Shown: positions 38,446 through 61,160 of the stretch, in pieces
How positions within the stretch are numbered: position 1 is the stretch's first letter
Layout of the letters: the number at the start of each line of letters is the position of its first letter
NCBI RefSeq assembly: GCF_003202755.1
Contig: NZ_QGLK01000005.1
Location: forward strand, 124,001-188,000
DNA length: 64,000 bases
From: Bifidobacterium asteroides
Lineage (GTDB): Bacteria; Actinomycetota; Actinomycetes; Actinomycetales; Bifidobacteriaceae
Direction of reading: 5' to 3'
Made by a program: the position numbers and the translations under genes
Notes under the pieces: generated by a model
Told to the model about the DNA's origin: nothing
The model's database searches: none
Seen by the model: the letters and a program-made list of their open reading frames with translations, nothing else

Positions 38446-41400
38446 ACTTCAATCCACGCTCCCGTGAAGGGAGCGACCTTACGCTCTTGTCTGTTGTAGC
38501 TTCCCGCGTCTATTTCAATCCACGCTCCCGTGAAGGGAGCGACCCAATGTTCGCCATGGCCGATTGCGGGAGTGTCTTATTTCAATCCACGCTCCCGTGA
38601 AGGGAGCGACCTTTTCATCCAAGGTGGCACACTCGCGGTTCGGATTTCAATCCACGCTCCCGTGAAGGGAGCGACCTGGGACCAATCATCAGAGATGGTG
38701 TCCTCTAACTATTTCAATCCACGCTCCCGTGAAGGGAGCGACATACAGACATTTAGACAACGCATGCAACGTACTACATTTCAATCCACGCTCCCGTGAA
38801 GGGAGCGACGCGTCTGGTCGCGGTCTTTTCTGCCTCGTTGCGATTTCAATCCACGCTCCCGTGAAGGGAGCGACGTGGTCGTATCAATCAGCGAGTTGGT
38901 CTCAGCAATTTTAATCCACGCTCCCGTGAAGGGAGCGACCACCAGCGAGGCCGACCTCTACCAGTCCCTGATATTTCAATCCACGCTCCCGTGAAGGGAG
39001 CGACCCATGTTCCTACGAGGTCTTTGCCTATGCCAAAATATTTCAATCCACGCTCCCGTGAAGGGAGCGACACTATGCGGGCAACGTCACGGATGTGGAC
39101 GCTAAATTTCAATCCACGCTCCCGTGAAGGGAGCAACGCGCGCCGTAGGCGCGGACAACGTCTACCGGTGATTTCAATCCACGCTCCCGTGAAGGGAGCG
39201 ACCCCTGAGTGCCTCCGTGTACGCGTTGGCCTCGCCGTTTCAATCCACGCTCCCGTGAAGGGAGCGACGTGTTCGTGGCGTTGTTGAAATTCCCTACGGT
39301 TGGATTTCAATCCACGCTCCCGTGAAGGGAGCGACGATGGCGCCCCAAATCTGCGACCCCAGGTTTCTATTTCAATCCACGCTCCCGTGAAGGGAGCGAC
39401 CCGAATGTATCCGTCATCCACACTGAAAAGTTTTATTTCAATCCACGCTCCCGTGAAGGGAGCGACACGCCAACGACGATCCGGACGGTGAGCTCACAGC
39501 CATTTCAATCCACGCTCCCGTGAAGGGAGCGACAACAGCGTAGTGCGACCCTCGCACACAGCATAAATTTCAATCCACGCTCCCGTGAAGGGAGCGACAT
39601 GGCATGGGAGACGGTGTGCGCGATGTCCGTGTCATTTCAATCCACGCTCCCGTGAAGGGAGCGACCTCTCGGACCTGACTGGGAGTACCACTGGCTCAAA
39701 TTTCAATCCACGCTCCCGTGAAGGGAGCGACCCGACAACGAGGCCCTGAACCTCATGCAGGACAAATTTCAATCCACGCTCCCGTGAAGGGAGCGACGTT
39801 GCATTTCCCGACGTTCGTTTCATTATTTTTGACATTTCAATCCACGCTCCACGCTCCCGTGAAGGGAGCGACTAGCGATGACGAATTTATTTCAAATCGA
39901 GATGGAATTTCAATCCACGCTCCCGTGAAGGGAGCGACCGGGCAGCAGCCAATAGCCCCGGCAGACTGTCAATTTCAATCCACGCTCCCGTGAAGGGAGC
40001 GACTCGGCGTTCGCGAAGAACACCTCGGTCGGTATCATTTCAATCCACGCTCCCGTGAAGGGAGCGACACACGGGGATCGCGGTCAGGGCCACCGTGAGC
40101 AAATTTCAATCCACGCTCCCGTAAAGGGAGCGACGTGCGAGCTTGTAGATGCCGGTGATATGGTAATATTTCAATCCACGCTCCCGTGAAGGGAGCGACG
40201 CGGGTCGCCGCAGCTGTGTCCGGCCATGTGATATTTCAATCCACGCTCCCGTGAAGGGAGCGACGGCATTCTTGGCCCCCTATGGGGCTTGCAGACTATT
40301 TCAATCCACGCTCCCGTGAAGGGAGCGACCGTATATCTTTAATGCGGCTAAAAACGATGGACAATTTCAATCCACGCTCCCGTGAAGGGAGCGACCCGCC
40401 TCCCATATCACGGTGTTCGATGCCGGCGGATTTCAATCCACGCTCCCGTGAAGGGAGCGACTGCGTGATGTGGCTGACGGCAGAAGCTTGGCGGCATTTC
40501 AATCCACGCTCCCGTGAAGGGAGCGACGCCCCTGGTGGCTGATAATCCACGTGAATACGTGATTTCAATCCACGCTCCCGTGAAGGGAGCGACGACATCT
40601 ATGCCCCGTTCGTATCGAATTCATCGAATTTCAATCCACGCTCCCGTGAAGGGAGCGACAGAAGGCAGCACATCATGCGTCACCCAACGCTGATTTCAAT
40701 CCACGCTCCCGTGAAGGGAGCGACCTGATAATCCACGCGAATACGTCGAATTCGACCTATTTCAATCCACGCTCCCGTGAAGGGAGCGACCCCCTTTGGC
40801 CTGCCACTGGGCCAAGGTGTCGGTATTTCAATCCACGCTCCCGTGAAGGGAGCGACACCTTCATGGGGATCCTGGCGGCATTCCGGGCGATATTTCAATC
40901 CACGCTCCCGTGAAGGGAGCGACCCTGTCGGTTGGCTAGGTTGGTGTTTTGCTGGTTATTTCAATCCACGCTCCCGTGAAGGGAGCGACCAGGCTTTGCA
41001 TGGACCTTAACCGTCGTTCCTTGAATTTCAATCCACGCTCCCGTGAAGGGAGCGACGCAAGCTTGGACCTAATCGAGCCCGCACGACCGGATTTCAATCC
41101 ACGCTCCCGTGAAGGGAGCGACACAGAACGCACGGACCGGTGATCATAAACGCTGGTGATTTCAATCCACGCTCCCGTGAAGGGAGCGACATATCCAGTT
41201 TGCTTGTGCCGCCAAAAGTCTCAAATTTCAATCCACGCTCCCGTGAAGGGAGCGACCTGCGCGACCTGGTAAGGCAGACCGTCCTAGAAATTTCAATCCA
41301 CGCTCCCGTGAAGGGAGCGACGAGCAGCCCGTCCATGGGCTCCCAGTGACCCCAGAATTTCAATCCACGCTCCCGTGAAGGGAGCGACGTTTCTGTAACC

Positions 41401-44400
41401 CTCTCGACCGCCAATGAGGACGATTTCAATCCACGCTCCCGTGAAGGGAGCGACAGGCCGGGTGGGGCACCAAGCCCATTATCTACATATTTCAATCCAC
41501 GCTCCCGTGAAGGGAGCGACGGACGGCTGTATCGAGTTTCTTCTCTGGCGTTTGATTTCAATCCACGCTCCCGCGAAGGGAGCGACCTGGTTGCCGGCGT
41601 AATGGTCACCGTACCGCGCGATTTCAATCCACGCTCCCGTGAAGGGAGCGACCTGGCAGCCTCATTATTACAGTAATAAGTAAAAAATTTCAATCCACGC
41701 TCCCGTGAAGGGAGCGACGACCGGTCACCAGCCATGAGGGGTCGCCTCCCTGATTTCAATCCACGCTCCCGTGAAGGGAGCGACACGATCCTAAGGGATC
41801 GCACCTATGATGAGACGCATTTCAATCCACGCTCCCGTGAAGGGAGCGACCTTTGTCTCTCGCTCCCCGACAGCACCTATTGGGCATTTCAATCCACGCT
41901 CCCGTGAAGGGAGCGACCTGATGATCGTCGTATTGCGTACCTTAATTACTAATTTCAATCCACGCTCCCGTGAAGGGAGCGACCCAGTCCGACGATCCTA
42001 TCGACTGCCGCCTTTGAATTTCAATCCACGCTCCCGTGAAGGGAGCGACAAGCCAGCCGACGACATTATCCCACGCACCGTGATTTCAATCCACGCTCCC
42101 GTGAAGGGAGCGACTTGGCTGACAAGGATAAGGCCATTGCTCTTATAATTTCAATCCACGCTCCCGTGAAGGGAGCGACTCATATGCTCATAGCTGGTTT
42201 CCAGTTTGGACCGATTTCAATCCACGCTCCCGTGAAGGGAGCGACGTTCTTCTGGAGCACAACGTCTCCCTTGTATGCATTTCAATCCACGCTCCCGTGA
42301 AGGGAGCGACAGCTGGTAGAAGACGCATCTGCCATCCGGAAGCAATTTCAATCCACGCTCCCGTGAAGGGAGCGACTCAAGCTGAACCGGATAGCGATCA
42401 AGCAGCTGAAATTTCAATCCACGCTCCCGTGAAGGGAGCGACCCGGCCGGATGGATCTGACCAATGCACCAGTCAGATTTCAATCCACGCTCCCGTGAAG
42501 GGAGCGACGATTCCCGATCCGACCATCAGCAAGGAACAGGCCATTTCAATCCACGCTCCCGTGAAGGGAGCGACCAGACTGAGCGTGCTACAGTAAGTAG
42601 CACATAAAATTTCAATCCACGCTCCCGTGAAGGGAGCGACGATAAGCAATGAGCAGCAAAAAGCAAGTAGATACATTTCAATCCACGCTCCCGTGAAGGG
42701 AGCGACACCGGCTGCCTTGACCATGCCAGCAGCACGCCGATTTCAATCCACGCTCCCGTGAAGGGAGCGACTGTTGTTTGACGTACTGGTAGGAGTCGTC
42801 GGCCAATTTCAATCCACGCTCCCGTGAAGGGAGCGACCGCAGTAATCCTTGCCAGTGGCCGGATCGTGCAGATTTCAATCCACGCTCCCGTGAAGGGAGC
42901 GACGACATGGGTAGCCGATAGAGTAGGTCCAGCGTTTATTTCAATCCACGCTCCCGTGAAGGGAGCGACACACCCTGAGTGATCCCATCCCACACGCCTG
43001 TGAAATTTCAATCCACGCTCCCGTGAAGGGAGCGACTTGCGCCGGACAGTGCCATTCTGACATACAATTGATTTCAATCCACGCTCCCGTGAAGGGAGCG
43101 ACTAGCAGACCTTATGAAGTACGCTCGGGACAGTCTCATTTCAATCCACGCTCCCGTGAAGGGAGCGACGGGTCACCAAGACAGTGTCCAGCCGCCGGAT
43201 GCGCATTTCAATCCACGCTCCCGTGAAGGGAGCGACGCATGGCCGACAAGGTTGAGCAGTTCAACGCGCAATTTCAATCCACGCTCCCGTGAAGGGAGCG
43301 ACTCGTGATACCAAGTGCACTCCAAATCAGGCTCAGATTTCAATCCACGCTCCCGTGAAGGGAGCGACCATTGGTGTACAACGGCGACAGCCCTTCCGGC
43401 ATATTTCAATCCACGCTCCCGTGAAGGGAGCGACGTATCCGCTTTAGAACAGTAGGCTATTGCCTCTGATTTCAATCCACGCTCCCGTGAAGGGAGCGAC
43501 GTCTGGACGACCTGTACGGCAGGCTTGACGATCCATTTCAATCCACGCTCCCGTGAAGGGAGCGACAACATAAACCAGTTCTATGCGCTGAATTTTAGTA
43601 ATTTCAATCCACGCTCCCGTGAAGGGAGCGACATGCTCAGCACGATACGTGCCAAAAGCCCTAGATATTTCAATCCACGCTCCCGTGAAGGGAGCGACCT
43701 GTAGTGTATAGGTCCACACCCACGCTCTTGCATTTCAATCCACGCTCCCGTGAAGGGAGCGACACCGCAGGCGCAGACCTACACGGAGGCCCTCAAATTT
43801 CAATCCACGCTCCCGTGAAGGGAGCGACCCGGGGTCTTGTACACGTGCAACTCGTCGCAGATATTTCAATCCACGCTCCCGTGAAGGGAGCGACCTTTGG
43901 CCGCGTCGGCTGGCGTTGCACCAGCATTGATTTCAATCCACGCTCCCGTGAAGGGAGCGACACAACGCTCTGAACAGCATCAAAAAGGTCGCGGGATTTC
44001 AATCCACGCTCCCGTGAAGGGAGCGACCTCTTCCAGCATGGCGGCAACCCGGTCCTGCGCTGATTTCAATCCACGCTCCCGTGAAGGGAGCGACCATCGG
44101 TCAGATACACCCCGGGGGCGTTTCTGTCATTTCAATCCACGCTCCCGTGAAGGGAGCGACCCCATGACATCGATCCTTTCTCTCATGTTCCGATTTCAAT
44201 CCACGCTCCCGTGAAGGGAGCGACGTCTTCGATTTCCTTTTTGGTGTATCTGTCCTCAATTTCAATCCACGCTCCCGTGAAGGGAGCGACGAGAGAGCAG
44301 GAGCTTGCCCCTTGCGTCTGATAATTTCAATCCACGCTCCCGTGAAGGGAGCGACGATATATCTGTCAGGATTCGGCAAACGCCACAAGATTTCAATCCA

Positions 44401-44685
44401 CGCTCCCGTGAAGGGAGCGACAGTGGCTTGACCTGGTGTACAAGGCCTATGGGGTATTTCAATCCACGCTCCCGTGAAGGGAGCGACCTTTGTATCGAAG
44501 TTCTTGGCTATCATATCAACGATTTCAATCCACGCTCCCGTGAAGGGAGCGACGTGTGCAAGGCTGCTTTTTTAATCCCGGGGAAGGATTTCAATCCACG
44601 CTCCCGTGAAGGGAGCGACTGGCATCATTCGCCACAAAGCTCGGCTTGTCCCTATTTCAATCCACGCTCCCGTGAAGGGAGCGAC
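38446..44685 (-). CRISPR. Type I-C CRISPR array, 95 repeats and 94 spacers (hand count)
   Basis: Repeats are 32 bp. In the transcribed (minus) sense each starts GTCGCTCCCTTCACGG and ends GAGCGTGGATTGAAAT, with the 7-bp stem CGCTCCC/GGGAGCG; spacers are about 33-35 bp, with a mean period of 66 bp. This is a I-C repeat, matching the cas genes. The ATTGAAAT end gives the crRNA 5' handle, so transcription is leftward, the leader is at 44686+ beside cas2, and the oldest spacers lie near 38446. Most repeats are identical. Variants occur at 38446 (ACTTC start), 38908, 39106, 39237, 40103 and 41555, and the repeat at 39834-39872 carries a 7-bp internal duplication. Confidence 0.99.
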
Positions 44686-45133: not shown

Positions 45134-45424
45134 CTATAACATCATCACTTTGTCAACAGGGATATGGCGCCTAACCCCATAGTAATGGATTCTGCGCGAG
45201 TATCTGGCACCCAGATCGTACAAGATCAAGCTGTCTTCCTGAGGATTGATCAACGTCATCAGCCGCTGTTTTAGCAGCTCACGGTCGGCGGGAGTGACCA
45301 CGCATTCGAACACACTATTTTGCACACGCTGACCAAACTTCATGCACTCATGGCCGACCTGTCGCAATCGTCTCCGGCCAGCAGCCTCACAGGTGTCGAC
45401 ATCATAAGCGACAACCACCATCAT
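45134..45424 (-). CDS. cas2: CRISPR-associated endoribonuclease Cas2
   Basis: A 96-residue, full-length Cas2 that forms the Cas1-Cas2 integrase. The ferredoxin fold begins MMVVVAYDVDTCEAAGRRRL with the conserved first-strand Asp, followed by QVGHECMKFGQRVQNSVFEC and DSLILYDLGARYSRRIHYYG. It is the last gene of the operon, 12 bp after cas1, and faces the leader. Confidence 0.97.
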   Translation of the reverse strand: MMVVVAYDVDTCEAAGRRRLRQVGHECMKFGQRVQNSVFECVVTPADRELLKQRLMTLINPQEDSLILYDLGARYSRRIHYYGVRRHIPVDKVMML

Positions 45425-45436
45425 TATTCTTTCACC

Positions 45437-46468
45437 CTACTTCCAAAACATCGGCGGATAGGCATCCATATCCCCACGTATGTATCTAGCCAACAATAAT
45501 GCCTGCACATAGGGCACCAACCCCCATGGCACTTTCTCCTTAAGAAAGGGGTGCATGATTTGCTCATTTTTGCGCTTCTGCCAGGCTGAAAGCACCTGCT
45601 TCCTCCCCTTGTCGTTAAGATAAGTTCCTCCGTTCTCTCTAATCTCGAAATCTCCGGCCTTAATTACATGAGTGTTGACCAGAGACAAAGCCAGCCGATC
45701 CGCAAAGACAGGGCGCAATTCCTCAACAAGATCCAGGGCCAGCGAAGATCTGCCTGGCCTGTCTGTATGCAAGAATCCAACATAAGGATCAAGGCCAACA
45801 CCTTGAAGTGCAGAACGACAATCTCCGGAAAGCAGCACGTAGATAAATGAGAGCAGGGCATTCATCCTATCCATCGGTGGCCTCCGGCTGCGCTGCTCGA
45901 AGTAGAAATCATCCTTATTTGTGAGGATGAGATCATCAAAGGCATAAAAGTAGCACTTCGCAGCCTCCCCCTCCACACCACGAACCGAATCCGCTGTTAG
46001 GCAACCATCCAATTCCTGCAAGGCTGCCAACAGACGGGCACTCTGCTTTTTGACACGAGGCACATTGATCCGTAAAGCGTGGTCTCGGGTAGCGCGCTCC
46101 AACACCTGTCGCGCATTGAATATCTTGCCCATGACGAACGAGGCTGCAATCGAGCAAACCTCATTATCGTCATCGGCCATGTGATACTGACGGCGTCGCA
46201 AAAGCACATTTCTGTTAGCTTCTCCAAGTACTGACCCGTAGTATTTGCCCTGCGGAGAGTAGAAGGAGAACGAGACCCCAAATTCATTACACTTGCCCAG
46301 CAAGGCCGGCGAGGCACCCTTGTAGCTGAAGCAAAGAATAGACTCCAAGGCACGCAGGGGTATCCGTCCCATGACGTGGTCTCCCTCATTCACCACAACA
46401 TTCTCCTGCTCCAGGGAAAGGTAGGCATCCTCTGTAGTGACAAACAAGGTGTTCAACATCTGTCTCAA
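45437..46468 (-). CDS. cas1: CRISPR-associated endonuclease Cas1, type I-C
   Basis: A 343-residue integrase that, with Cas2, inserts new spacers at the leader end. The N-terminal beta domain (LNTLFVTTEDAYLSLEQENV, IPLRALESILCFSYKGASPA) precedes the helical domain with metal ligands Glu in SVRGVEGEAAKCYFYAFDD, His in YVGFLHTDRPGRSSLALDLV and the downstream acidic DLVEELRPVFADRL. All are intact, so adaptation should be competent. It lies between cas4 and cas2, the standard I-C order. Confidence 0.97.
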   Translation of the reverse strand: MRQMLNTLFVTTEDAYLSLEQENVVVNEGDHVMGRIPLRALESILCFSYKGASPALLGKCNEFGVSFSFYSPQGKYYGSVLGEANRNVLLRRRQYHMADDDNEVCSIAASFVMGKIFNARQVLERATRDHALRINVPRVKKQSARLLAALQELDGCLTADSVRGVEGEAAKCYFYAFDDLILTNKDDFYFEQRSRRPPMDRMNALLSFIYVLLSGDCRSALQGVGLDPYVGFLHTDRPGRSSLALDLVEELRPVFADRLALSLVNTHVIKAGDFEIRENGGTYLNDKGRKQVLSAWQKRKNEQIMHPFLKEKVPWGLVPYVQALLLARYIRGDMDAYPPMFWK

Positions 46469-46527: not shown

Positions 46528-47247
46528 CTACAACTCTTTCAAGGTCTTTCGAATGTAGTCAGCGGCGGAAGACTTATGCACAAGTTCAGGCAGGCAGATA
46601 TCCTTCAATGAGCATGACCGGCAACCCGTTTTCGGCTTCACCTTTGGAGTATGGCCTCGTCGATAAAGGTCCCGCATCTCCGACAGATCATCGGCCACCT
46701 GAGCGCGAAGTTCATTGTTGAGTTCAACCACTTCACGGCGCTTGGTCTGCTGGTAGAACAATGCCCCCTGGCTGATGCTGCAGGAGAGCATTTCTTCCAA
46801 GCACATGGCTTCGCCGCACAATTGCAAACGATCAGCATTATTGACCTTGCTGGAACCATGTTTGTACTCAATAGGATAGGGTTTCCACCGCCCTCTTCTG
46901 CCTGTCAATGAAACCCCATCCTGAGCCGCGTGAAATTCGACAATGTCACAATCTCCGACAACTCCTAACCTTCTGGAGAATACGCGCAGATCGCGCAGTA
47001 TCAAGGTGTCGCCGCGTTTTTCAGAAGCGTGGTAGTCGTGAGCACGTCGGTGTTCGAAGTCTCCTGCATATGTTCTGGTGTTGTCACGCCACTGCTCCTC
47101 TATGTGGATCAATGCCCATTGGCGCTTGCAGAACTCAAAATGCTGAATGCCAGACAGGGTCAGCCATTCATCCTCAGGATATTCGGCCGGCCCTGTGGCC
47201 ATGGACAAGTCCATGGAATTATCACTCATTGTAGTGTTCTCAGCCAT
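46528..47247 (-). CDS. cas4: CRISPR-associated exonuclease Cas4
   Basis: A 239-residue RecB-type nuclease that trims prespacers and selects for the PAM before integration. It has the iron-sulfur-ligand Cys in GIQHFEFCKRQWALIHIEEQ, with the remaining three in the C-terminal cluster GCRSCSLKDICLPEL, and the nuclease motifs DIVEFH and YPIEYKHGSSKVNNADRLQL. It is about 20 residues longer than average from an N-terminal polar lead. It overlaps cas7 by 8 nt. Cas4 makes selection of a TTC PAM likely for acquired spacers. Confidence 0.95.
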   Translation of the reverse strand: MAENTTMSDNSMDLSMATGPAEYPEDEWLTLSGIQHFEFCKRQWALIHIEEQWRDNTRTYAGDFEHRRAHDYHASEKRGDTLILRDLRVFSRRLGVVGDCDIVEFHAAQDGVSLTGRRGRWKPYPIEYKHGSSKVNNADRLQLCGEAMCLEEMLSCSISQGALFYQQTKRREVVELNNELRAQVADDLSEMRDLYRRGHTPKVKPKTGCRSCSLKDICLPELVHKSSAADYIRKTLKEL

Positions 47248-48172
47248 CCACCATTTCAGTCAGTTCGACCGACTGCGGAATAGCTGAAGTATCAACGGTC
47301 ACATCGTAATCCGAGAAGCTGCGCGGTGTCTCAACTTCAGGCTTATGGGCCACATGAATGCTATCGAACAGCTTATAGGAGGGAGCATCGCCAAGATCGT
47401 TGCTGTGCTTGAAGACATAGAGCTTGCGAACGGCCATCTTGCCCCTAGCAGCAGAATGATCAAACTCGAACATATTGAGAATGGCCTGCCAAAGCATGGC
47501 CAGGTCTTCCTCGCTAAATCCGGTGGTCTTTTGTGCTAGCTTTGCATTCACATAGCCATCAGCACGGTATAAACCGTAAGGAACAATTGACTTGTTGCCC
47601 ATCTCATTGTTCTTGTTCTCTTGGTCTTTTTCCGTAGTAATGGCCACCCTGGTGATGGTGACCGACTGTGGGAAAATCGGATCGATGGACCTCGAGAATC
47701 CAAGTTGCACAGGGCCACGCACCTGGCCACAGGCCAACCCGCCCTTGACGAAGGTGGTCATCACCGCGCCAAAGGTCCTGATATCGAAGAAATTGGAACA
47801 CATGTAATCGAGGATTAATCTATCCAGCTCGCCATTTTCCTTCTTGGCCTTCTTTAGGGTCTTCCCGATACTGTCCACATCGGGGTCCCCATTGACGCCA
47901 ATCGCTTTCAATGCCTCAGCATCGAGGCGGTTCAGCGGAACCTGCTGCTTAATATAAATACGCCAGGGCGCCTTATCCCCGTTAATCAATTGCACATAGT
48001 TACGTATCTTCCTCTTTAGGCAAACATCAGTAACAATTCCAATCCCGGTCTCACTATCGGTTCGTGGCATATTGCCTGATTCCGGATCTCCGTTGGGATT
48101 GCCATTCTCAACGTCATAGAGAATGGAAAAATCGTACCTATTTTGGATAGCCTTGGCAGTTTGCTCACTCAT
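47240..48172 (-). CDS. cas7: Cascade backbone subunit Cas7 (Csd2), type I-C
   Basis: A 310-residue protein that polymerises along the crRNA as the backbone of the I-C Cascade. The family start YDFSILYDVENGNPNGDPES with NMPRTDSETGIGIVTDVCLK is textbook Csd2, and ADSFDIRTFGAVM-type text (NFFDIRTFGAVMTTF, CGQVRGPVQLGFSRSIDP, SITRVAITTEKDQENK) follows. Overlaps of 8 nt with cas8c and with cas4 show tight translational coupling. Confidence 0.97.
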   Translation of the reverse strand: MSEQTAKAIQNRYDFSILYDVENGNPNGDPESGNMPRTDSETGIGIVTDVCLKRKIRNYVQLINGDKAPWRIYIKQQVPLNRLDAEALKAIGVNGDPDVDSIGKTLKKAKKENGELDRLILDYMCSNFFDIRTFGAVMTTFVKGGLACGQVRGPVQLGFSRSIDPIFPQSVTITRVAITTEKDQENKNNEMGNKSIVPYGLYRADGYVNAKLAQKTTGFSEEDLAMLWQAILNMFEFDHSAARGKMAVRKLYVFKHSNDLGDAPSYKLFDSIHVAHKPEVETPRSFSDYDVTVDTSAIPQSVELTEMVDG

Positions 48173-48566
48173 TTACAATTCCTTCTTCCTTGTTAGTTTC
48201 CTTATTGTCGTCCTTGTTCTTGCCCTTGTAGCGCTCCTGAGTCTCGAAATAATATCCAAGCTGGAAAGCACCCTGTTCAGGCAGCGATAACCTCGTCGGG
48301 AAGTTCTCGCCGATTCTGTTCATCAGATCAGCGATACGCTTGGTATAGTAAATGCGCGTTCCCGTCGGCAGTTTTCGCAGGTGCTTTTTCGCCAAATCGC
48401 CCAAGTGCGGGAAAACCACGGCTGGCATGGTCGATGCATTAGTAAAGAACCGGTCACCAATCGTGGTATTGATACCAGGATTCGCAGCATGTTGTATGTC
48501 CTCATACAGGGCGAACAGCCGTCCTAGGACATAAGGCACATTGGTGCTTTCTTTGTTGATGGACAC
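48165..48566 (-). CDS. cas11c: Small subunit Cas11c, from an internal start in cas8c
   Basis: Inside cas8c, a perfect Shine-Dalgarno AAGGAGG (48581-48575) sits 8 nt before an in-frame GTG at 48566-48564. Translation from there gives 133 residues (start VSINKESTNVPYVLGRLFAL) ending at the cas8c stop. Type I-C systems are known to make the Cas11 small subunit from such an internal site in cas8c, and the size fits. The protein is mostly helical, with FALYEDIQHAANPGINTTIG and FPHLGDLAKKHLRKLP. Confidence 0.75.
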   Translation of the reverse strand: MSINKESTNVPYVLGRLFALYEDIQHAANPGINTTIGDRFFTNASTMPAVVFPHLGDLAKKHLRKLPTGTRIYYTKRIADLMNRIGENFPTRLSLPEQGAFQLGYYFETQERYKGKNKDDNKETNKEEGIVNE

Positions 48567-49958
48567 TTGCAATACCTCCTTAGGGCATTGGTTGTTTTGA
48601 TGACGAAGAAAATACGCTTTGATGATTGCCGCCTTGGCGCGGGGAACTTCATGCTCAACGCCAATGCGGTTCTCGACAGCAGTCAGGAGCGACGTAGGAT
48701 AGGGCGCACCTGTAAGAATGGCCTTAAATAGGTCGGAAACTGTACGGGGGGAAGCTGGAATCCTCTTTTTCCCACCAGCGGCAGATGGCACAGTTTGCGC
48801 AAGGAGCATCCACACAGGTAGATCGTGACGTTTATCAAATTTCGGTCGTTCGATATCCAAATCCGCATAATGCCGACGTACATGTTCCATGTAACTGCCA
48901 TAAGTGTCCTTCAAGAAGAAGGACACCGAAAGCCTGGCCGCATTAGGGGCAAGCCCAAGGATGTAAAAATGCTCATCCGGATTAAGCCTGACACCATTGA
49001 AATCAACGGGGTTCCCCTTAGACAAGGCTGTGACAGTGGCTATTAGATCCTGTTGGTCAACCCCTGCAGCGCCTTCAATGCACAAGTTCATCTCAGCTGA
49101 GTACTCAGCCTGTCCTGACTCTGCCCAGGAAACAATCGTCAAGGAACCATCATTGACAGTTCTTGTATACTGATCGTCTTTCAGCACAGTATTTAAGGCT
49201 GTAGTATAAGCAAAGGCTTCACGTTTGCTCATAGGAGCATTTTGATCCTGCTTTTTGTTGTAGGAAAGATATGCTGGCGCGTTAAAAGACACTAGTGCTG
49301 ATCCACTGGATTGTGCGTTGCGGACGCCTCTGATATTTGGATGAGTAAGAGCAGGGACGACAGCTTGGCCTGAAACAACACTTTGCATGGTTTCAGAACC
49401 AGCGGCCGTTTCACCACTGTCATCGTCATCCGAAGAGAACCATGAATCCCAGTATTTCTGCATGGTTCGGTTTTTAGATAAAGGTAAGCCGTTAAAGCAG
49501 AGGACAAAATTACCGGTTAAGGCCTTCTTCCAGTCCCCTTCGCCTAATTTCTCCTCGACAACTGCCGCTTGAGGCGTCCGGGAAAAGAAAGCGAGCACTG
49601 CACGGGCTTCATCATCTTCGGCGTTTGCAAGCACCTGACGATGCAATTCAGCAGCAGCTGCAAAGCGCTTGGCCGCCTTGTCTGTTGCACCGTTGGCATC
49701 TGCACCTAGCAGGTAAGAGGAGTTGTCGCAGAGGAAATTGGCCTGAATTTTCACCGTTCGTAATGCATGTGCCGGAACAGGCATCATACGTCTGAACTGC
49801 TTGTTCTTTGTCAATGTCCCAAACGGAATGACATGGGTTATGGCCCCGTCATCCGCTATGTCCAGTCCCCACGGAACATTTTCAACGCTGTATCCATACC
49901 GCGGTGCCTGACCAGCCTCCACCAGCCGGTCGTAAAGTCTGACTAGTTCGCCAATCAT
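48165..49958 (-). CDS. cas8c: Cascade large subunit Cas8c (Csd1)
   Basis: A 597-residue type I-C large subunit, which recognises the PAM and helps open the target duplex. It begins MIGELVRLYDRLVEAGQ, and the family text GYSVENVPWGLDIADDGAIT, CDNSSYLLGADANG, FVLCFNGLPLSKNRTMQKYW, LVSFNAPAYLSYNKKQDQNA and FYILGLAPNAARLSVSFFL is present. The C-terminal ~133 residues are also made separately as Cas11c. It overlaps cas5 by ATGA (49955-49958) and cas7 by 8 nt. Confidence 0.97.
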   Translation of the reverse strand: MIGELVRLYDRLVEAGQAPRYGYSVENVPWGLDIADDGAITHVIPFGTLTKNKQFRRMMPVPAHALRTVKIQANFLCDNSSYLLGADANGATDKAAKRFAAAAELHRQVLANAEDDEARAVLAFFSRTPQAAVVEEKLGEGDWKKALTGNFVLCFNGLPLSKNRTMQKYWDSWFSSDDDDSGETAAGSETMQSVVSGQAVVPALTHPNIRGVRNAQSSGSALVSFNAPAYLSYNKKQDQNAPMSKREAFAYTTALNTVLKDDQYTRTVNDGSLTIVSWAESGQAEYSAEMNLCIEGAAGVDQQDLIATVTALSKGNPVDFNGVRLNPDEHFYILGLAPNAARLSVSFFLKDTYGSYMEHVRRHYADLDIERPKFDKRHDLPVWMLLAQTVPSAAGGKKRIPASPRTVSDLFKAILTGAPYPTSLLTAVENRIGVEHEVPRAKAAIIKAYFLRHQNNQCPKEVLQVSINKESTNVPYVLGRLFALYEDIQHAANPGINTTIGDRFFTNASTMPAVVFPHLGDLAKKHLRKLPTGTRIYYTKRIADLMNRIGENFPTRLSLPEQGAFQLGYYFETQERYKGKNKDDNKETNKEEGIVNE

Positions 49959-50611
49959 GAGCTCATCCTCGGATCAGTTGCATCCAGCACGCCGTTAATC
50001 AACTCAGCTCTGAAAAACATAGGTTGCGGGTCCGCAGGGTCTCGATAGTCCATGTCGTATAACATGTACCCCAGATCCCGATGACCATTTTCGAATCCCT
50101 TGGGCTGACCCTTATCGACATCCCAAAGCCGAAAATCGACAGGGAACTCCCGTGTTCCGAAATAAGGGTGGTGATAGTACTGCCCGTTCTGAGCTCGTCT
50201 ATTGAACATGCTGATGAACTTAGCCGGCGTATCCCCTGCAGCAGCTTTGCTATTCATATCAAAATGTGCCTCAATCACATAGTGAACATCCCGCAGAATG
50301 GTGGAGGCACGCTGCTGAATGTCTGAGGAAGCATAGATCGCGCTGTCTTTGGACGGATCATTGATCATCGACCGGATAGTATCGGCCGATATCACGCTGC
50401 TGACCTCATTGCGACGAACACTGGTGAATCTGATGGGATTCATAACCACGATCCTGTCAATCCGCCAGATCATGCCCGGATGCCAGAACACAGCCTCCAG
50501 AATCCCACGTGCCGCCGATGGCGTCATCACGTCGTACGAGACTCTCTCTACTTTCATTTCTGGTCTGGTGAAGAGGGCGTACGGACCCCAGACCTCAAGT
50601 TGTACTGTCAT
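49955..50611 (-). CDS. cas5c: CRISPR-associated protein Cas5 (Cas5d), crRNA-processing endoribonuclease
   Basis: A 218-residue Cas5d. In type I-C, which lacks cas6, this protein cuts pre-crRNA at the base of the repeat stem and caps the 5' handle. The start VQLEVWGPYALFTRPEMKVE, then RVSYDVMTPSAARGILEAVF and WHPGMIWRIDRIVVMNPIRF, and the C-terminal YFGTREFPVDFRLWD are typical. It would also process the solitary repeat upstream of the operon if that repeat is recognised. It is 45 bp downstream of cas3. Confidence 0.97.
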   Translation of the reverse strand: MTVQLEVWGPYALFTRPEMKVERVSYDVMTPSAARGILEAVFWHPGMIWRIDRIVVMNPIRFTSVRRNEVSSVISADTIRSMINDPSKDSAIYASSDIQQRASTILRDVHYVIEAHFDMNSKAAAGDTPAKFISMFNRRAQNGQYYHHPYFGTREFPVDFRLWDVDKGQPKGFENGHRDLGYMLYDMDYRDPADPQPMFFRAELINGVLDATDPRMSS

Positions 50612-50656: not shown

Positions 50657-52801
50657 TCAATACAGCAGCCCGTTTTGAGGCAACTGATCTTCATCGACCT
50701 GCAGACCTGTAGCACTGTCGTACATGCCCATGTCCAGCAGAACAAATGCATCGTCATCCGACCTGGCACCGTGCTCAGCCAAAGCGGATATCTTCCCAGC
50801 CTCTTTGAGTCTGTCCAGCTGTCTAGGCCAGACATTGACCGCGTACCGGCCCAATCTGCGGAACAGCCCTCGCGTATAGCAACGAGGATCAGTCAGCTGG
50901 GCACACAGGGTGCTCGCTTCTTCATTGACCGGTATATAGACGGGAACAGTTGGCGTATCAATCAGCTTGAAAAGCTCAGCAATCTGAGCGAACGGCATAC
51001 GGCATCCTGATATTCCACGCTCATGAGCCTTAAGAATCTGACGCTGATCGAGACTCTCGTCCCCTCGCATTCCAAAGAGCCTGGTGAAATATTCATGAAT
51101 CGCTTTTGAAGATGCCAGGTCAGCATTGCCTTTCCGTACCAACTCGAAAGCCAACATATTCTGTTTCAAAAACGAAACCTGGCCCTCATCAGTCGAAAAA
51201 ACATGAACCAATGAGGCATCCGCTTCACGTCGACCTTCTCTATTGCAACGGCCAGCTGTCTGAAGAATCGAATCAAGACCAGTCTGTTCCCTATATGCCT
51301 CAGGAAAATCGACATCCACTCCGGCCTCTATCAGAGACGTGGATACGACCCTGCAAGATTCTCCCTGGGTGAGGCGATCCCGTATCTGCTTCAGAAACCG
51401 TTCCCTGTCATAGGCACATTGCAGTGTAGTCAAGCAGAAAGTACCGTCTTCAAAGCCATGCTTTCGCACCGCTCCGGAGATGTACTGCGCCTCCTTACGT
51501 GTGTTGACCACGCACAGAACCTGATTATGGCCTTCTACAGCTTCAGCCATCTCATCCATGTTCTTATGACCGTCATCGACGATTCGGTTGCGCCTGAATT
51601 CCGAGCGCTCCTTTTCGCTTAATGGTGCAATTTCAGGGATGGTCAGATTCGGGCATTGAAGAGCCTGAGCAAACAGTTCCTGCAAGGCCGGCTGTGTTGC
51701 TGTGCACAGCACCGCGGTGACGTGATAGTTGGCAACCAGTTCAGCTATGGCCTGTACACATGGTTTCAGCTGAGGCAAGGGCAAGGTCTGGGCCTCATCG
51801 AAGATCACAACAGAGTTAGCTATGTTATGAATCTTCCTGAGTTTAGAGGCCTTGTTGGCGAACAGGCTTTCGAAAAACTGCACAGCAGTGGTTACGATAA
51901 CCGGCATGTTCCAGTTCTCGGCCGCAAAACTGCGATGCAAATCGTTTGCTGTAAGCTCGTCTTCCTCTTTTAATTGGAAAGCAGCATCTGCATAGTGTGG
52001 TAGAACCGCATCTGACCCAAGGAGGGTTTCGAATTCCTTTACCGTCTGGTCGATGATTGACGTGTAGGGCACGACGTAAATAACCCTATCCATATGGTGT
52101 GTTTTGGCGTGTTCAAGCGCGAACGTAAGCGAGGAATCAGTCTTGCCGCCGCCTGTGGGAGCGGTCAGCGTGTATAGACCTGGATTCCATTCAGGATCGG
52201 CCCCGTGAGTAAGGCAGTCACGCAATATGGCATTGCGTTTTTCATTCAACGACGTACTCGCCTTCGCCGACAGGAAGGACTCAGCCCTGCGCTCCATGAT
52301 TTCAGCAAGCGCCTTGATTCTGATTGACTGATGCTCACGCAGCTGCCCAGCCAGCGCTTTACTGATCTCACGTAATTCCTGTGGAGGCGGCATGATCGAT
52401 TTGGACAGACGATCGGGACCGAGATCCTGAAGCAGCTGCTCGAGAAATGGTGATTCATCGCGCTCTACTTTGCCATTGACAAAGAACTCAGCATCCAGCC
52501 GATCCGCATCCACTAGCGCTGATTCGTGCATACGGATACGCATCATGTCCGAGAAATGTGAGCCCAAAGAAGGAAGCGGCTTGACTTCGGGAAGAGTGAT
52601 CTCATCCTTCCAATGCGATGCATCAGGGTTGGGACGCTTCATTCTGCCGACCAAGGTGCTTGAATTCTCGGTATCAATCTGATTGCCAAAATCCGGCAAA
52701 CCAGCATGATGCCCTGCAATGGCAAATGTGGCTTCTTGAAGATGGAGCTTATAGGCTACTTTCATCCCGTATGAAGAGTGATTGACACTACTGCTCATCA
52801 T
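50657..52801 (-). CDS. cas3: Cas3 helicase-nuclease, main fragment (second half of HD domain plus helicase)
   Basis: A 714-residue protein with intact SF2 helicase motifs: Walker A LTAPTGGGKTDSSLTFALEH, DEAD-box-like VVIFDEAQTLPLPQ, CTATQPALQELF, and motif V/VI TSLIEAGVDVDFPEAYREQT with QTAGRCNREGRREA. The N-terminus starts inside the HD nuclease: VNHSSYGMKVAYKL (third HD His) and AIAGHHAGLPDFG (His-His motif). The first half of the HD domain is a separate frame (52788-53036), overlapping by 14 nt. An AGGGAGG box lies 6 nt before the second ATG (52798). Cas3 is normally one protein in type I-C. Confidence 0.93.
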   Translation of the reverse strand: MMSSSVNHSSYGMKVAYKLHLQEATFAIAGHHAGLPDFGNQIDTENSSTLVGRMKRPNPDASHWKDEITLPEVKPLPSLGSHFSDMMRIRMHESALVDADRLDAEFFVNGKVERDESPFLEQLLQDLGPDRLSKSIMPPPQELREISKALAGQLREHQSIRIKALAEIMERRAESFLSAKASTSLNEKRNAILRDCLTHGADPEWNPGLYTLTAPTGGGKTDSSLTFALEHAKTHHMDRVIYVVPYTSIIDQTVKEFETLLGSDAVLPHYADAAFQLKEEDELTANDLHRSFAAENWNMPVIVTTAVQFFESLFANKASKLRKIHNIANSVVIFDEAQTLPLPQLKPCVQAIAELVANYHVTAVLCTATQPALQELFAQALQCPNLTIPEIAPLSEKERSEFRRNRIVDDGHKNMDEMAEAVEGHNQVLCVVNTRKEAQYISGAVRKHGFEDGTFCLTTLQCAYDRERFLKQIRDRLTQGESCRVVSTSLIEAGVDVDFPEAYREQTGLDSILQTAGRCNREGRREADASLVHVFSTDEGQVSFLKQNMLAFELVRKGNADLASSKAIHEYFTRLFGMRGDESLDQRQILKAHERGISGCRMPFAQIAELFKLIDTPTVPVYIPVNEEASTLCAQLTDPRCYTRGLFRRLGRYAVNVWPRQLDRLKEAGKISALAEHGARSDDDAFVLLDMGMYDSATGLQVDEDQLPQNGLLY

Positions 52802-53036
52802 AGGCCTCCCTAATCATCCTCTGGAATTCCGCCGAATACTTGCCTATGTCATGAAGAAGGCCTGTATCCAGACCCATATCAGCCTGATCTTGGTCATACA
52901 GATAACCAGCCAGCCTGCCGGCGAAGGCTGCATCAAGGCATCCCGTCATTACCAGATGCTGCACGCAGACCTCGAAACCATGATCTTTTGAAGTGCGGGC
53001 CAGATACTCATCTACCTCGTCGCCTTCGGTCGTCAT
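52788..53036 (-). CDS. cas3: Cas3 HD-domain N-terminal fragment (frame-split from cas3)
   Basis: An 82-residue frame with the start of a Cas3 HD nuclease: EYLARTSKDHGFEVCVQHLV (first HD His) and the metal-binding GLLHDIGKYSAEFQRMI. It stops at a TAG (52790-52788) where the next block of the HD domain continues in another frame of the downstream ORF. A one-base shift would restore a single continuous Cas3. No classical slippery heptamer is visible. Either cas3 is inactivated by frameshift, or the two parts are made separately and assemble. It is coupled to the preceding 41-codon leader ORF by an ATGA overlap. Confidence 0.8.
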   Translation of the reverse strand: MTTEGDEVDEYLARTSKDHGFEVCVQHLVMTGCLDAAFAGRLAGYLYDQDQADMGLDTGLLHDIGKYSAEFQRMIREAYDEQ

Positions 53037-53158
53037 GCGATCATCTCTTCCTGACTTGGGTCACTGTTGAGCGGTTGCGCTGTATTGACCTGAATCCAAG
53101 CCGTCAATCGCCATACGCAAACCGGCTTCCCGCATATAAACCCAGAATCCTCAACCAT
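53033..53158 (-). CDS. 41-residue leader ORF of the cas operon
   Basis: Starts at an ATG (53158) with an excellent AAGGAG box 9 nt upstream, and its stop overlaps the cas3 start (ATGA, 53036-53033). The predicted start is about 40 nt after the operon transcription start. The peptide (MVEDSGFICGKPVCVWRLTA, then WIQVNTAQPLNSDPSQEE) has two Cys and matches no family I know. The ribosome-binding site and coupling suggest it is translated, perhaps to drive or regulate cas3 translation. Confidence 0.55.
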   Translation of the reverse strand: MVEDSGFICGKPVCVWRLTAWIQVNTAQPLNSDPSQEEMIA

Positions 53159-53233: not shown

Positions 53234-53270
53234 TTCGGTTTTTGGTTATTTAGAAAGGACTATATATTAC
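53234..53270 (+). promoter_or_regulatory. PAM and protospacer-like target of the solitary guide RNA, abutting the cas -35 box
   Basis: On the plus strand, TTC (53234-53236), the type I-C PAM, is followed by GGTTTTTGGTTATTTAGAA. Positions 1-5, 7-9, 11, 13-17 and 19 match the guide encoded at 53388-53370. Mismatches are at 6, 10, 12 and 18; complementarity is lost after 19. The PAM touches the -35 hexamer (53228-53233). Bound Cascade would cover the promoter, and the partial match should not license Cas3 cleavage. An AT-rich imperfect palindrome (53261-53283) lies within and beyond the target. Confidence 0.75.
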
Positions 53271-53323: not shown

Positions 53324-53357
53324 GGTATAAAGGCTCATCAGCCTAGGCCGATGAGCC
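53324..53357 (-). terminator. Intrinsic terminator of the solitary guide RNA
   Basis: In minus sense GGCTCATC (53357-53350) pairs with GATGAGCC (53339-53332) around the inner palindrome GCCTAGGC with one mismatch on each side, and is followed by TTTATACC. It ends the guide transcript before the cas promoter. Confidence 0.8.
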
Positions 53358-53413
53358 CTAGCCTTATTCTACTAAACAGCCAGAAACCATTTCAATCCAC
53401 GCCTTGCGGCGAC
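53332..53413 (-). ncRNA. Solitary crRNA-like RNA gene upstream of cas3 (CreR-like autoregulatory guide)
   Basis: In minus sense: a 25-nt shortened repeat (53413-53389) keeps the leading GTCGC and the full TGGATTGAAAT handle, but has a reduced stem, CGCC-gcaa-GGCG region, in place of the 7-bp array stem. A 31-nt guide-like segment follows (53388-53358, starting GGTTTCTGGCTGTTTAG), then an intrinsic terminator instead of a second repeat. The guide's first 19 nt match, in register, the PAM-flanked site at the cas promoter. No spacer in the array shares this sequence. Its own promoter was not identified. It fits the CreR class of cas-repressing RNAs described in other CRISPR types. Confidence 0.75.
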
Positions 53414-53599
53414 TACGTCTGTATTCTGACCACAGCATTCAGCAATGCCGATCATGCATACAAGCCAACCACAATCCAAGCATGCGCCATAGTGACGTTT
53501 TAAGTTATAGCTAGATTGCTTTGCGCTACAGACACTTTATAAGTTACTCCTCTTCAGCTACTGAATTTGCTTGGCGCAGTCATTGACCTTATCCGCTAT

Positions 53600-54261
53600 C
53601 TACAAAGTACGGCGGCGGTACTCCATAGGAGGCATACCTACTTTGGATTTAAAAGCGCTGCAAAAGACGGACAGCTTGGAATATCCGCAATTCAGAGCAA
53701 TCTGTTCGACAGGCTTGGAGGAATTGCTGAGCATACTTCGAGCCGCATTGATTCGCGCGTCCATAACATAGGCATGAGGCGTATAACCGGCTGCCTTTTT
53801 GAATACCCTAATGAAGCTAGGCTCACCGAGACCAGTCATAATGGCAAGCTGCTGATTGGCAATATATGTCCATCACCATTTGAATGTCATGGCCGCTCCT
53901 GTCAATGTCACCCTGCCCCACCGGCGCATCAACGAACCAGGTCAGAATGTCCGTCACATATTTCGCAAGCATTGTTTCGGATAAATAGGTGCCGGACCGA
54001 AATATGTTGTAACTGGTCTTTAGCGGATGCAATGCCTTTTCATCCCGCTCCAGGGCGAAGATCGGCCCTCGCTTGGCAATTATCTGCTGATAATAAAACC
54101 GGGCGGCCTGACCATCGAAGTGCATCCAAAGTATCTCTGTCGGCCCCACAGTCTGATAGTGAAAGTATTTGGCAGCAATCCGAAAGTACAAACTGACCAC
54201 CATGGGCAACGCCCCGCATAGCATTGCTACGCGGTGTGAGCTCGCCTGATTTCAAATACAT
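53600..54261 (-). pseudogene. Frameshifted AraC-family transcriptional regulator
   Basis: Three overlapping frames spell one AraC protein. 54261-54180 gives a cupin-side fragment (GVAHGGQFVLSDC); 54180-53860 continues YFHYQTVGPTEILWMHFDGQ in a second frame; 53855-53600 gives the double-HTH (LGEPSFIRVFKKAAGYTPHA, RINAARSMLSNSSKPVEQIA, GYSKLSVFCSAFKSKVGMPP). The join near 53858 needs a one-base change (ATATAT-T-GCCAAT), and another shift is needed near 54180. The gene is therefore inactive as read. It lies 200 bp from the solitary guide RNA, and its former targets are unknown. Confidence 0.8.
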
Positions 54262-60276: not shown

Positions 60277-61160
60277 ACATGCACGATACCTTGCTGCAAT
60301 ATAGTTATATCTACGAGCGCAGCAAACACCGATGAGTGCGGTGTCTTTGCGGAAACGCCGAGTCAGTACGAGCTACCATTATTCACTAGCTACCGCTTCC
60401 CATCAGGGACACCTATCCGTGGGGCAACAATAATCAGTGAGGTTTAGACGACAACATCGTGCACACACGGGGCATGCCTGTCTTTGTTCTGAAAGATAAA
60501 GCGGTACTCCTTACAAATCCCTCCAGTCAGCATAGGAACCTTCCAGTCCCTAGGCCTTGCCTCAGACATAAGGGCTCATGTCTAGGAAATCAGCTTGAAC
60601 AGTCCGTTGGAAACAGGCAATCGCCTCAATGCAGTAAATCGCCCGACCCGGCACCACCATCAACCAGTACCTGTGCCAGCTTTTAAGGGTCCCGCCCACA
60701 GCATAAGGGAGAAAATACCGGCGTGGCTATGGTGGTCGGGCTTCTTGCCATGAGTATTATGGCAACAAACCTCAGCCGCAGGATCCCATAGCAGCGGCCA
60801 CTAACACTTCGCACGAGTAAGAGGCCGGACGACTCCCCCAAGACAAGTTCGGCCATTCGGGTGGCCCAGCAATAATCCCAAGTAAAACCTGGGCCACCCA
60901 TCTACTTTTTTATACCTTTTCATGAATGGGGTCCAATCATGTTCAGGTTGTAAGGGCCGCCTGTCCCTCAAGCAGCTTTGAAGCAACCCAATGCACGCCC
61001 TTCTTAATCGTACTGAAACCAGATACAGATCGTATGCCTGTGTGGGACAAGACAAGTGAAGGCCATAACCAAGCCTGACGTACCTAGAATCATTTCAATC
61101 CACGCTCCCGTGAAGAGAGCAATCACCCGAGTACGAGCAGTTGATGAGATCTATCCATAA
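60277..61160. other. Gene-poor region downstream of fas
   Basis: About 880 bp holding an orphan CRISPR repeat (61092-61123) and otherwise no supported gene. Minus frames at 60683-60901 and 60801-61055 have no start signals or recognisable motifs. Confidence 0.35.
61092..61123 (-). repeat. Orphan type I-C CRISPR repeat
   Basis: A 32-bp copy of the array repeat with three differences, all in the 5' part of the transcribed sense (ATTGCTCTC instead of GTCGCTCCC). The 3' half, including the ATTGAAAT handle, is perfect. In minus sense the following 34 nt begin GATTCTAGGTACGTCAGG. It is 16 kb from the array and 8 kb from the cas operon, with no second repeat. Confidence 0.85.

Follow-up and report, generated by a model that had tools for sequence, protein, structure and literature searches.

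The cas3 gene of the type I-C CRISPR-Cas locus in this window (the whole 64,000-nt stretch of Bifidobacterium asteroides DNA analysed here) is divided between two overlapping reading frames, which raises the question of whether the gene has been misread, has decayed, or encodes its nuclease in two pieces. The upstream frame, ORF1 (53036..52788, minus; 82 aa), carries the N-terminal part of the Cas3 HD nuclease, including QHLV and GLLHDIGK, whereas the downstream frame, ORF2 (52801..50657, minus; 714 aa), encodes the remaining HD domain with the motifs VNHSS, GHHAGLPD, and DADRLDAE (NHS, GHH, and DAD), followed by the helicase and a C-terminal domain. The two share a 14-nt overlap (52788-52801, minus) that holds the double ATG of ORF2 and the TAG stop of ORF1, the latter 14 nt inside ORF2. 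Because ORF2 is read in the +1 frame with respect to ORF1, a one-base change would fuse them. The initial annotation had proposed both the division within the HD domain and its reversibility by a single base, and both stood when the coordinates were re-derived.

Taken together, the two frames contain all the hallmarks of a type I-C Cas3, namely the HD motifs (H, HD, H, HH, D) and then an SF2 helicase. ORF1 matched a Cas3-HD profile at 2.5e-7 and, by itself, fell below the curated cut-offs of HD models. On the single PADLOC Cas3c profile, ORF1 covered positions 11-68 and ORF2 positions 69-600 of 612 (1.7e-174); because the two are colinear on one profile and their junction is common to six of six genomes, the split is not attributable to chance. 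The HD residues, whose counterparts in Thermobifida fusca Cas3 are metal ligands, are distributed over both products, with H27, H62, and D63 in ORF1 and H86, H109, H110, and D176/D178 in ORF2, and they were invariant in both halves in an alignment of six rows.

The conservation of the junction was assessed at three taxonomic scales. Among 27 genomes of the genus, this cas3 subfamily was found in six, and a seventh (G015) had only a distant relative with 38% identity over the helicase. The initial annotation had called for a comparison of the junction in sister strains; in all six genomes, which include Bifidobacterium sp. 7101, B. apousia W8102, B. choladohabitans, and B. asteroides ESL0200, cas3 occupies two frames, ORF2 starts at the same point, the ORF1 stop is positioned alike, and GGGAGG and ATGATG are kept. 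ORF2 is 93-100% identical among five of these, the window's own included, and 64% identical in the sixth, G002, which has a full-looking locus (ORF sizes as expected) with at least 14 repeats. Of 189 genomes of the family, 49 had matches, and in the eight next-closest relatives (51-56% identity) cas3 is a single frame of 788-908 codons. The linker, measured from the Arg codon (Leu in two genes) after FQxxI to the Val before DHS/NHS, is 22 nt in all six split genes and 21 nt in all eight one-piece relatives. Across the phylum, 25 of 396 genomes had a Cas3 match, the window's own among them; 23 of the other 24 carry HDxGK and HHxG in one frame, and the remaining gene (L056) is cut by a contig end. 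These family- and phylum-wide counts are in line with the initial annotation, which took a one-protein Cas3 to be the norm in I-C systems. A scan of GTDB r220 genomes for Cas3 returned six loci, four of them from the split group, and the cas3 region had no match in a plasmid collection. In a tree of 19 Cas3 sequences, in which long branches elsewhere are unsure, the six split sequences fell on one side of a single branch (100/100). Since the junction and the one-nucleotide-longer linker are common to all six and these form one group, the most likely history is a single origin of the split, followed by its persistence as the identity of the proteins fell to 64%.

Both halves are under strong purifying selection, judging from their substitution patterns. 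Among five close species, dN/dS of ORF1 was 0.023-0.075 in 10 of 10 pairs (dS 0.17-0.63) and that of ORF2 was 0.063-0.121; the HD part of ORF2 taken separately gave 0.02-0.12 in nine of the 10 pairs and 0.46 in one, a value resting on four changes. Of the 83 codons of ORF1, 49 are identical, 29 vary only synonymously, and five vary in amino acid, four of these near the N-terminus. ORF1 is thus not a dead fragment, given its low dN/dS and mostly synonymous variation. Comparisons of G002 with the others are saturated at synonymous sites, so that only dN is usable there (about 0.25-0.27 for ORF1). Two candidate explanations raised in the initial annotation fail on these data. An inactivated cas3 was rejected because relaxed selection is absent, with whole-ORF dN/dS of 0.02-0.12 (0.02-0.08 for ORF1) and a split that survives to 64% identity. 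Phase variation was likewise rejected in this between-genome comparison, as all six genomes show one phase and the junction contains no slippery repeat, the longest run being GGG and the only two-unit repeats ATGATG and AGTAGT. A second break lies upstream in the window, where an AraC-family regulator (53600-54224, minus) is broken into overlapping frames (53823-54224 and 53600-53839); in one relative, L032, the matching N and C parts are in one frame, so this break, unlike that of cas3, is not common to all.

The placement of the break was examined in a structural proxy, the predicted fold of the one-piece relative L036 (34% identity; pTM 0.81). There the break maps to the loop between helix 53-60 and helix 69-79, with pLDDT under 50 at residues 62-65, so that cas3 is interrupted in an inter-helix loop of the HD domain. 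Linker length at this position is variable, being short in L036 and long in solved I-C Cas3 chains. ORF2 modelled alone gave a helicase fold whose HD remainder was weak (pTM 0.73; block means of about 34-75 over residues 1-139), as would fit a domain that is missing a part, and a shallow alignment may be another cause. The best match of both models was the I-C Cas3 8zns.

The rest of the I-C operon is complete at the window locus. All of its genes lie on the minus strand, with profile matches identifying cas5c (49955..50611), cas8c (48165..49958), cas7 (47240..48172), cas4 (46528..47247), cas1 (45437..46468), and cas2 (45134..45424), and a CRISPR array (38446..44685, minus) follows with 95 repeats and 94 spacers, none duplicated. 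Within cas8c, an internal Shine-Dalgarno (SD) sequence, AAGGAGG (-12.5 kcal/mol), precedes TTG463 or GTG465 and leaves 133-135 aa (region 48165-48570, minus); it is likely the start of a putative Cas11c small subunit (48165..48566, minus, for GTG465), and an internal start within I-C cas8c is already known (PMC7684278). A stray copy of the I-C repeat (61092-61123, plus; three mismatches to the consensus) occurs outside any array, close to a fatty-acid synthase gene and about 8 kb away from cas3.

The spacers provide a record of the activity of these systems. The window array was compared with those of four relatives (29, 60, 60, and 60 spacers, from a 10-kb flank only), and no spacer was shared between any two of the five strains. 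Self-targeting spacers were absent when compared with the strain's own genome, beyond the stray repeats. Array DNA of the window and of L034, L035, and L032 matched bee Bifidobacterium phages, and that of L033 gave no phage match. When 302 spacers (one 43-nt interval dropped) were mapped at ≤7 mismatches to four phages picked for prior matches, 27 matched, compared with 0 of 906 shuffled sequences. The best match of 19 of the 27 was flanked 5′ by TTC, a trinucleotide that makes up 1.3-2.4% of those on the four phages by chance; the other sequences at the PAM position were TTT (three) and TTG, CTC, TGC, TCC, and TGT (one each). Nine of 10 consecutive spacers in L035, which is B. asteroides ESL0200 (spacers 43-50 and 52), matched a single phage family, BlindBasel1/BlindUri1, all with TTC. 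The BlindBasel1 protospacers divide by strand, four on the plus strand at 12.6-20.0 kb and five on the minus strand at 22.8-26.3 kb, and the oldest spacer of the burst (43, with 3-4 mismatches), under an assumed polarity with the leader adjoining cas2, lies at the strand switch point at 22.8 kb. The clean separation of strands had P = 0.016 for nine matches in a post hoc test, and P = 0.029 when two near-identical protospacers were merged. Those two, spacers 44 and 46, take nearly the same protospacer with a one-base shift (BlindBasel1 24039 and 24040), and both are perfect matches. Among the window's own BadAztec/BadAargau spacers, strand separation was absent and the strands were mixed. The ESL0200 burst, one burst in one relative, looks like Cas3-dependent primed adaptation, and the spacer record as a whole shows adaptation more directly than interference. 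Because the operons are complete, the arrays unshared, the phage-matching spacers flanked by TTC, and one burst priming-like, the I-C systems with split cas3 look operational.

A solitary repeat and guide (53355-53422, minus) lie upstream of cas3. Their target (53234-53253, plus) adjoins TTC in the promoter region of the cas genes, some 200 nt ahead of ORF1, and differs from the window's guide at positions 6, 10, and 12 of the guide. TTC also flanks the match in L032 and L033, where the first 15 positions have mismatches at 6 and 12 only; ESL0200 likewise has them only at 6, 12, and 15, with TTT rather than TTC, and in L034 the match is shifted by one. CreR directs Cascade to repress the operon that encodes it, and the joint change of guide and target from one species to the next is what a CreR-like guide would be expected to show. 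The solitary guide therefore looks regulatory by its matches, and such a role does not require a dead Cas3.

How the second frame is translated bears directly on what the gene produces. An SD-like AGGGAGG inside ORF1 (52811-52805, minus) is conserved in the six genomes. The initial annotation placed this box 6 nt from an ATG, which is correct for the second ATG of ORF2; the first (52801) is only 3 nt away. ORF1 is itself preceded by the SD-like AGGAAGAG (53045..53052, minus; -12.8 kcal/mol). The ORF2 duplex is -10.3 to -12.6 kcal/mol in all six genomes and those of the other cas genes -7.4 to -13.4 kcal/mol, all energies depending on an assumed anti-SD sequence of Bifidobacterium; since 6.4% of the 2302 ATGs in the window reach -10 kcal/mol, the ORF2 site is good but not unique. 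A stronger point than the energy is that G002 has the Arg codon CGG in place of AGG, yet retains GGGAGG and ATGATG, which suggests that the initiation signal itself is maintained. With an overlapping stop and start and an SD before the downstream start, ORF1 and ORF2 have the arrangement of a translationally coupled pair, and coupling is predicted.

The main rival to such initiation, though an unlikely one, is that +1 ribosomal frameshifting joins the two frames into a full-length fused Cas3 with the internal SD as its stimulator, which would serve the same end as two chains. ORF2 is in the appropriate frame, both halves are under selection, and the fused linker would equal in length that of the one-piece relatives. 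In all six genomes, a TGA stands five codons before the ATG in the ORF2 frame, so any frameshift would be confined to about 27 nt. Programmed +1 frameshifting of the prfB type likewise involves an SD-like stretch upstream of the stop, with a spacing of about 6 nt. At the cas3 junction a purine-rich SD-like stretch does precede the stop, but it ends 14 nt before it; the codons just before the stop should be unable to re-pair in +1, and the sole candidate, AGG followed by G, for which re-pairing in the P site is conceivable, reads CGG_G in G002. A prfB-like site was thus absent from the shared ~27 nt, with neither a conserved slippery codon by the stop nor a stimulator at fixed spacing, which counts against frameshifting at a site of this type in particular. 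What is kept instead is a pair of start codons, and frameshifting gives no reason for ATGATG to persist in all six genomes.

The other explanations would deny the gene an intact nuclease, or the split its reality. The initial annotation had suggested that, if interference is off, Cascade with the solitary guide would be a purely regulatory complex. A loss of interference, in which Cascade, array, and guide persist only to regulate or bind and the two parts of Cas3 are relics, would be consistent with a divided HD domain and with a PAM-flanked match of the guide to the cas promoter in most of the five species; it is nevertheless improbable, because it leaves unexplained the strong selection on ORF1 and ORF2, both of which survive to 64% identity, and a spacer record of large unshared arrays, TTC-flanked phage matches, and a priming-like burst in one relative, and the claim of a purely regulatory complex is accordingly unsupported. 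Still less probable is that ORF2 acts alone as an HD-dead helicase, in adaptation or with a nuclease supplied in trans, with ORF1 serving some unrelated function. In its favour are an intact helicase half and the poor model of the HD remainder when ORF2 is folded alone, but the metal-site residues are invariant in both halves and ORF1 remains colinear with the Cas3c profile. As for a sequencing or assembly error, which the one-base difference between the frames might invite, the same junction occurs in six genomes, four of them named, and six assemblies would all have to carry a systematic error at one site; this possibility is ruled out for practical purposes. The split is best regarded, from comparative sequence evidence, as an old, inherited and selected architecture of this group of bee-gut bifidobacteria and not as a mistake.

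Conservation, selection, and the kept initiation signals thus favour the functional two-piece nuclease that was among the options of the initial annotation, and it is probable that this type I-C Cas3 is naturally encoded as two separately translated, coupled chains that reconstitute the HD nuclease. The gene would have been split once, in an ancestor of the clade, by a single additional nucleotide in the loop that joins the HDxGK helix to the helix of the following HD motif, and an internal ribosome-binding site (AGGGAGG, ATGATG) would start the second chain. Ribosomes ending ORF1 at the TAG, or new ribosomes, would initiate ORF2 via the SD within ORF1, and re-initiation across the 14-nt overlap could keep the two chains roughly matched. 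The ~9-kDa ORF1 product and the ORF2 product would then assemble non-covalently into one HD domain, and the assembled Cas3 would be recruited by Cascade as an ssDNA nuclease and 3′-5′ helicase and degrade phage DNA; separate translation, assembly in trans, and nuclease activity are all inferred. It is somewhat less probable, although still favoured, that this represents an obligate two-chain CRISPR nuclease, in which a ~9-kDa N-terminal protein and a helicase chain with its own translation start together form the HD metal centre in trans. A single gene could be restored by changing one base, yet the split persists across a clade of insect-associated bifidobacteria and so may be useful; if so, possible uses are a nuclease activation that depends on assembly and an altered surface presented to phage Cas3 inhibitors.

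In the open-licence literature, no description of a conserved HD-split Cas3 was found, and a frameshifted cas3 appeared only in PMC4449606 (2015), where a footnote to Table 3 records "Frameshift in gene Cas3" for the honeybee strain Hma3 (I-C, 63 spacers). Hma3 is a honeybee Bifidobacterium whose I-C cas3 is likewise frameshifted, and by analogy it very likely has the junction of the split group, although the available text of PMC4449606 records the frameshift at the strain level and does not treat conservation, selection, or function. The available portions of two surveys of Bifidobacterium CRISPR systems (PMC4521832; PMC7284854) do not mention a split cas3, and the latter reports 229 spacers for W8102. 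Strains listed as cas3-frameshifted would be taken as possibly CRISPR-defective, whereas the comparative evidence points to an inherited, selected architecture. If confirmed, the junction would provide a natural split point in the I-C Cas3 HD nuclease and a ready-made way to make Cas3 activity dependent on assembly.

Some type I systems, such as I-A, have separate Cas3′′ (HD) and Cas3′ (helicase) proteins. The split cas3 resembles these in drawing its HD nuclease parts and its helicase from more than one gene; however, the Cas3′′/Cas3′ break lies between domains, whereas that of the split cas3 interrupts the HD domain and divides the HD ligands between the two chains, and ORF1 carries only H27, H62, and D63 where Cas3′′ has a complete HD domain on its own polypeptide. 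The solved type I-C Cas3 proteins (PDB 8g9u, 8zns) share the motif order of HD then helicase and the same operon, and ORF1 and ORF2 read together match 8zns/8g9u at 1e-84 to 1e-85, but those are one polypeptide. A parallel in expression is the Cas11c of I-C cas8c, described in the available text of PMC7684278, in which an internal ribosome-binding site in an operon gene likewise yields a second functional chain; if confirmed, the split cas3 would join it as a second instance in which an internal start supplies an I-C operon with an additional chain. The start of Cas11c keeps the cas8c reading frame, so that Cas11c repeats the C-terminal part of Cas8c, whereas ORF2 begins in a different frame and its product has no sequence in common with that of ORF1.
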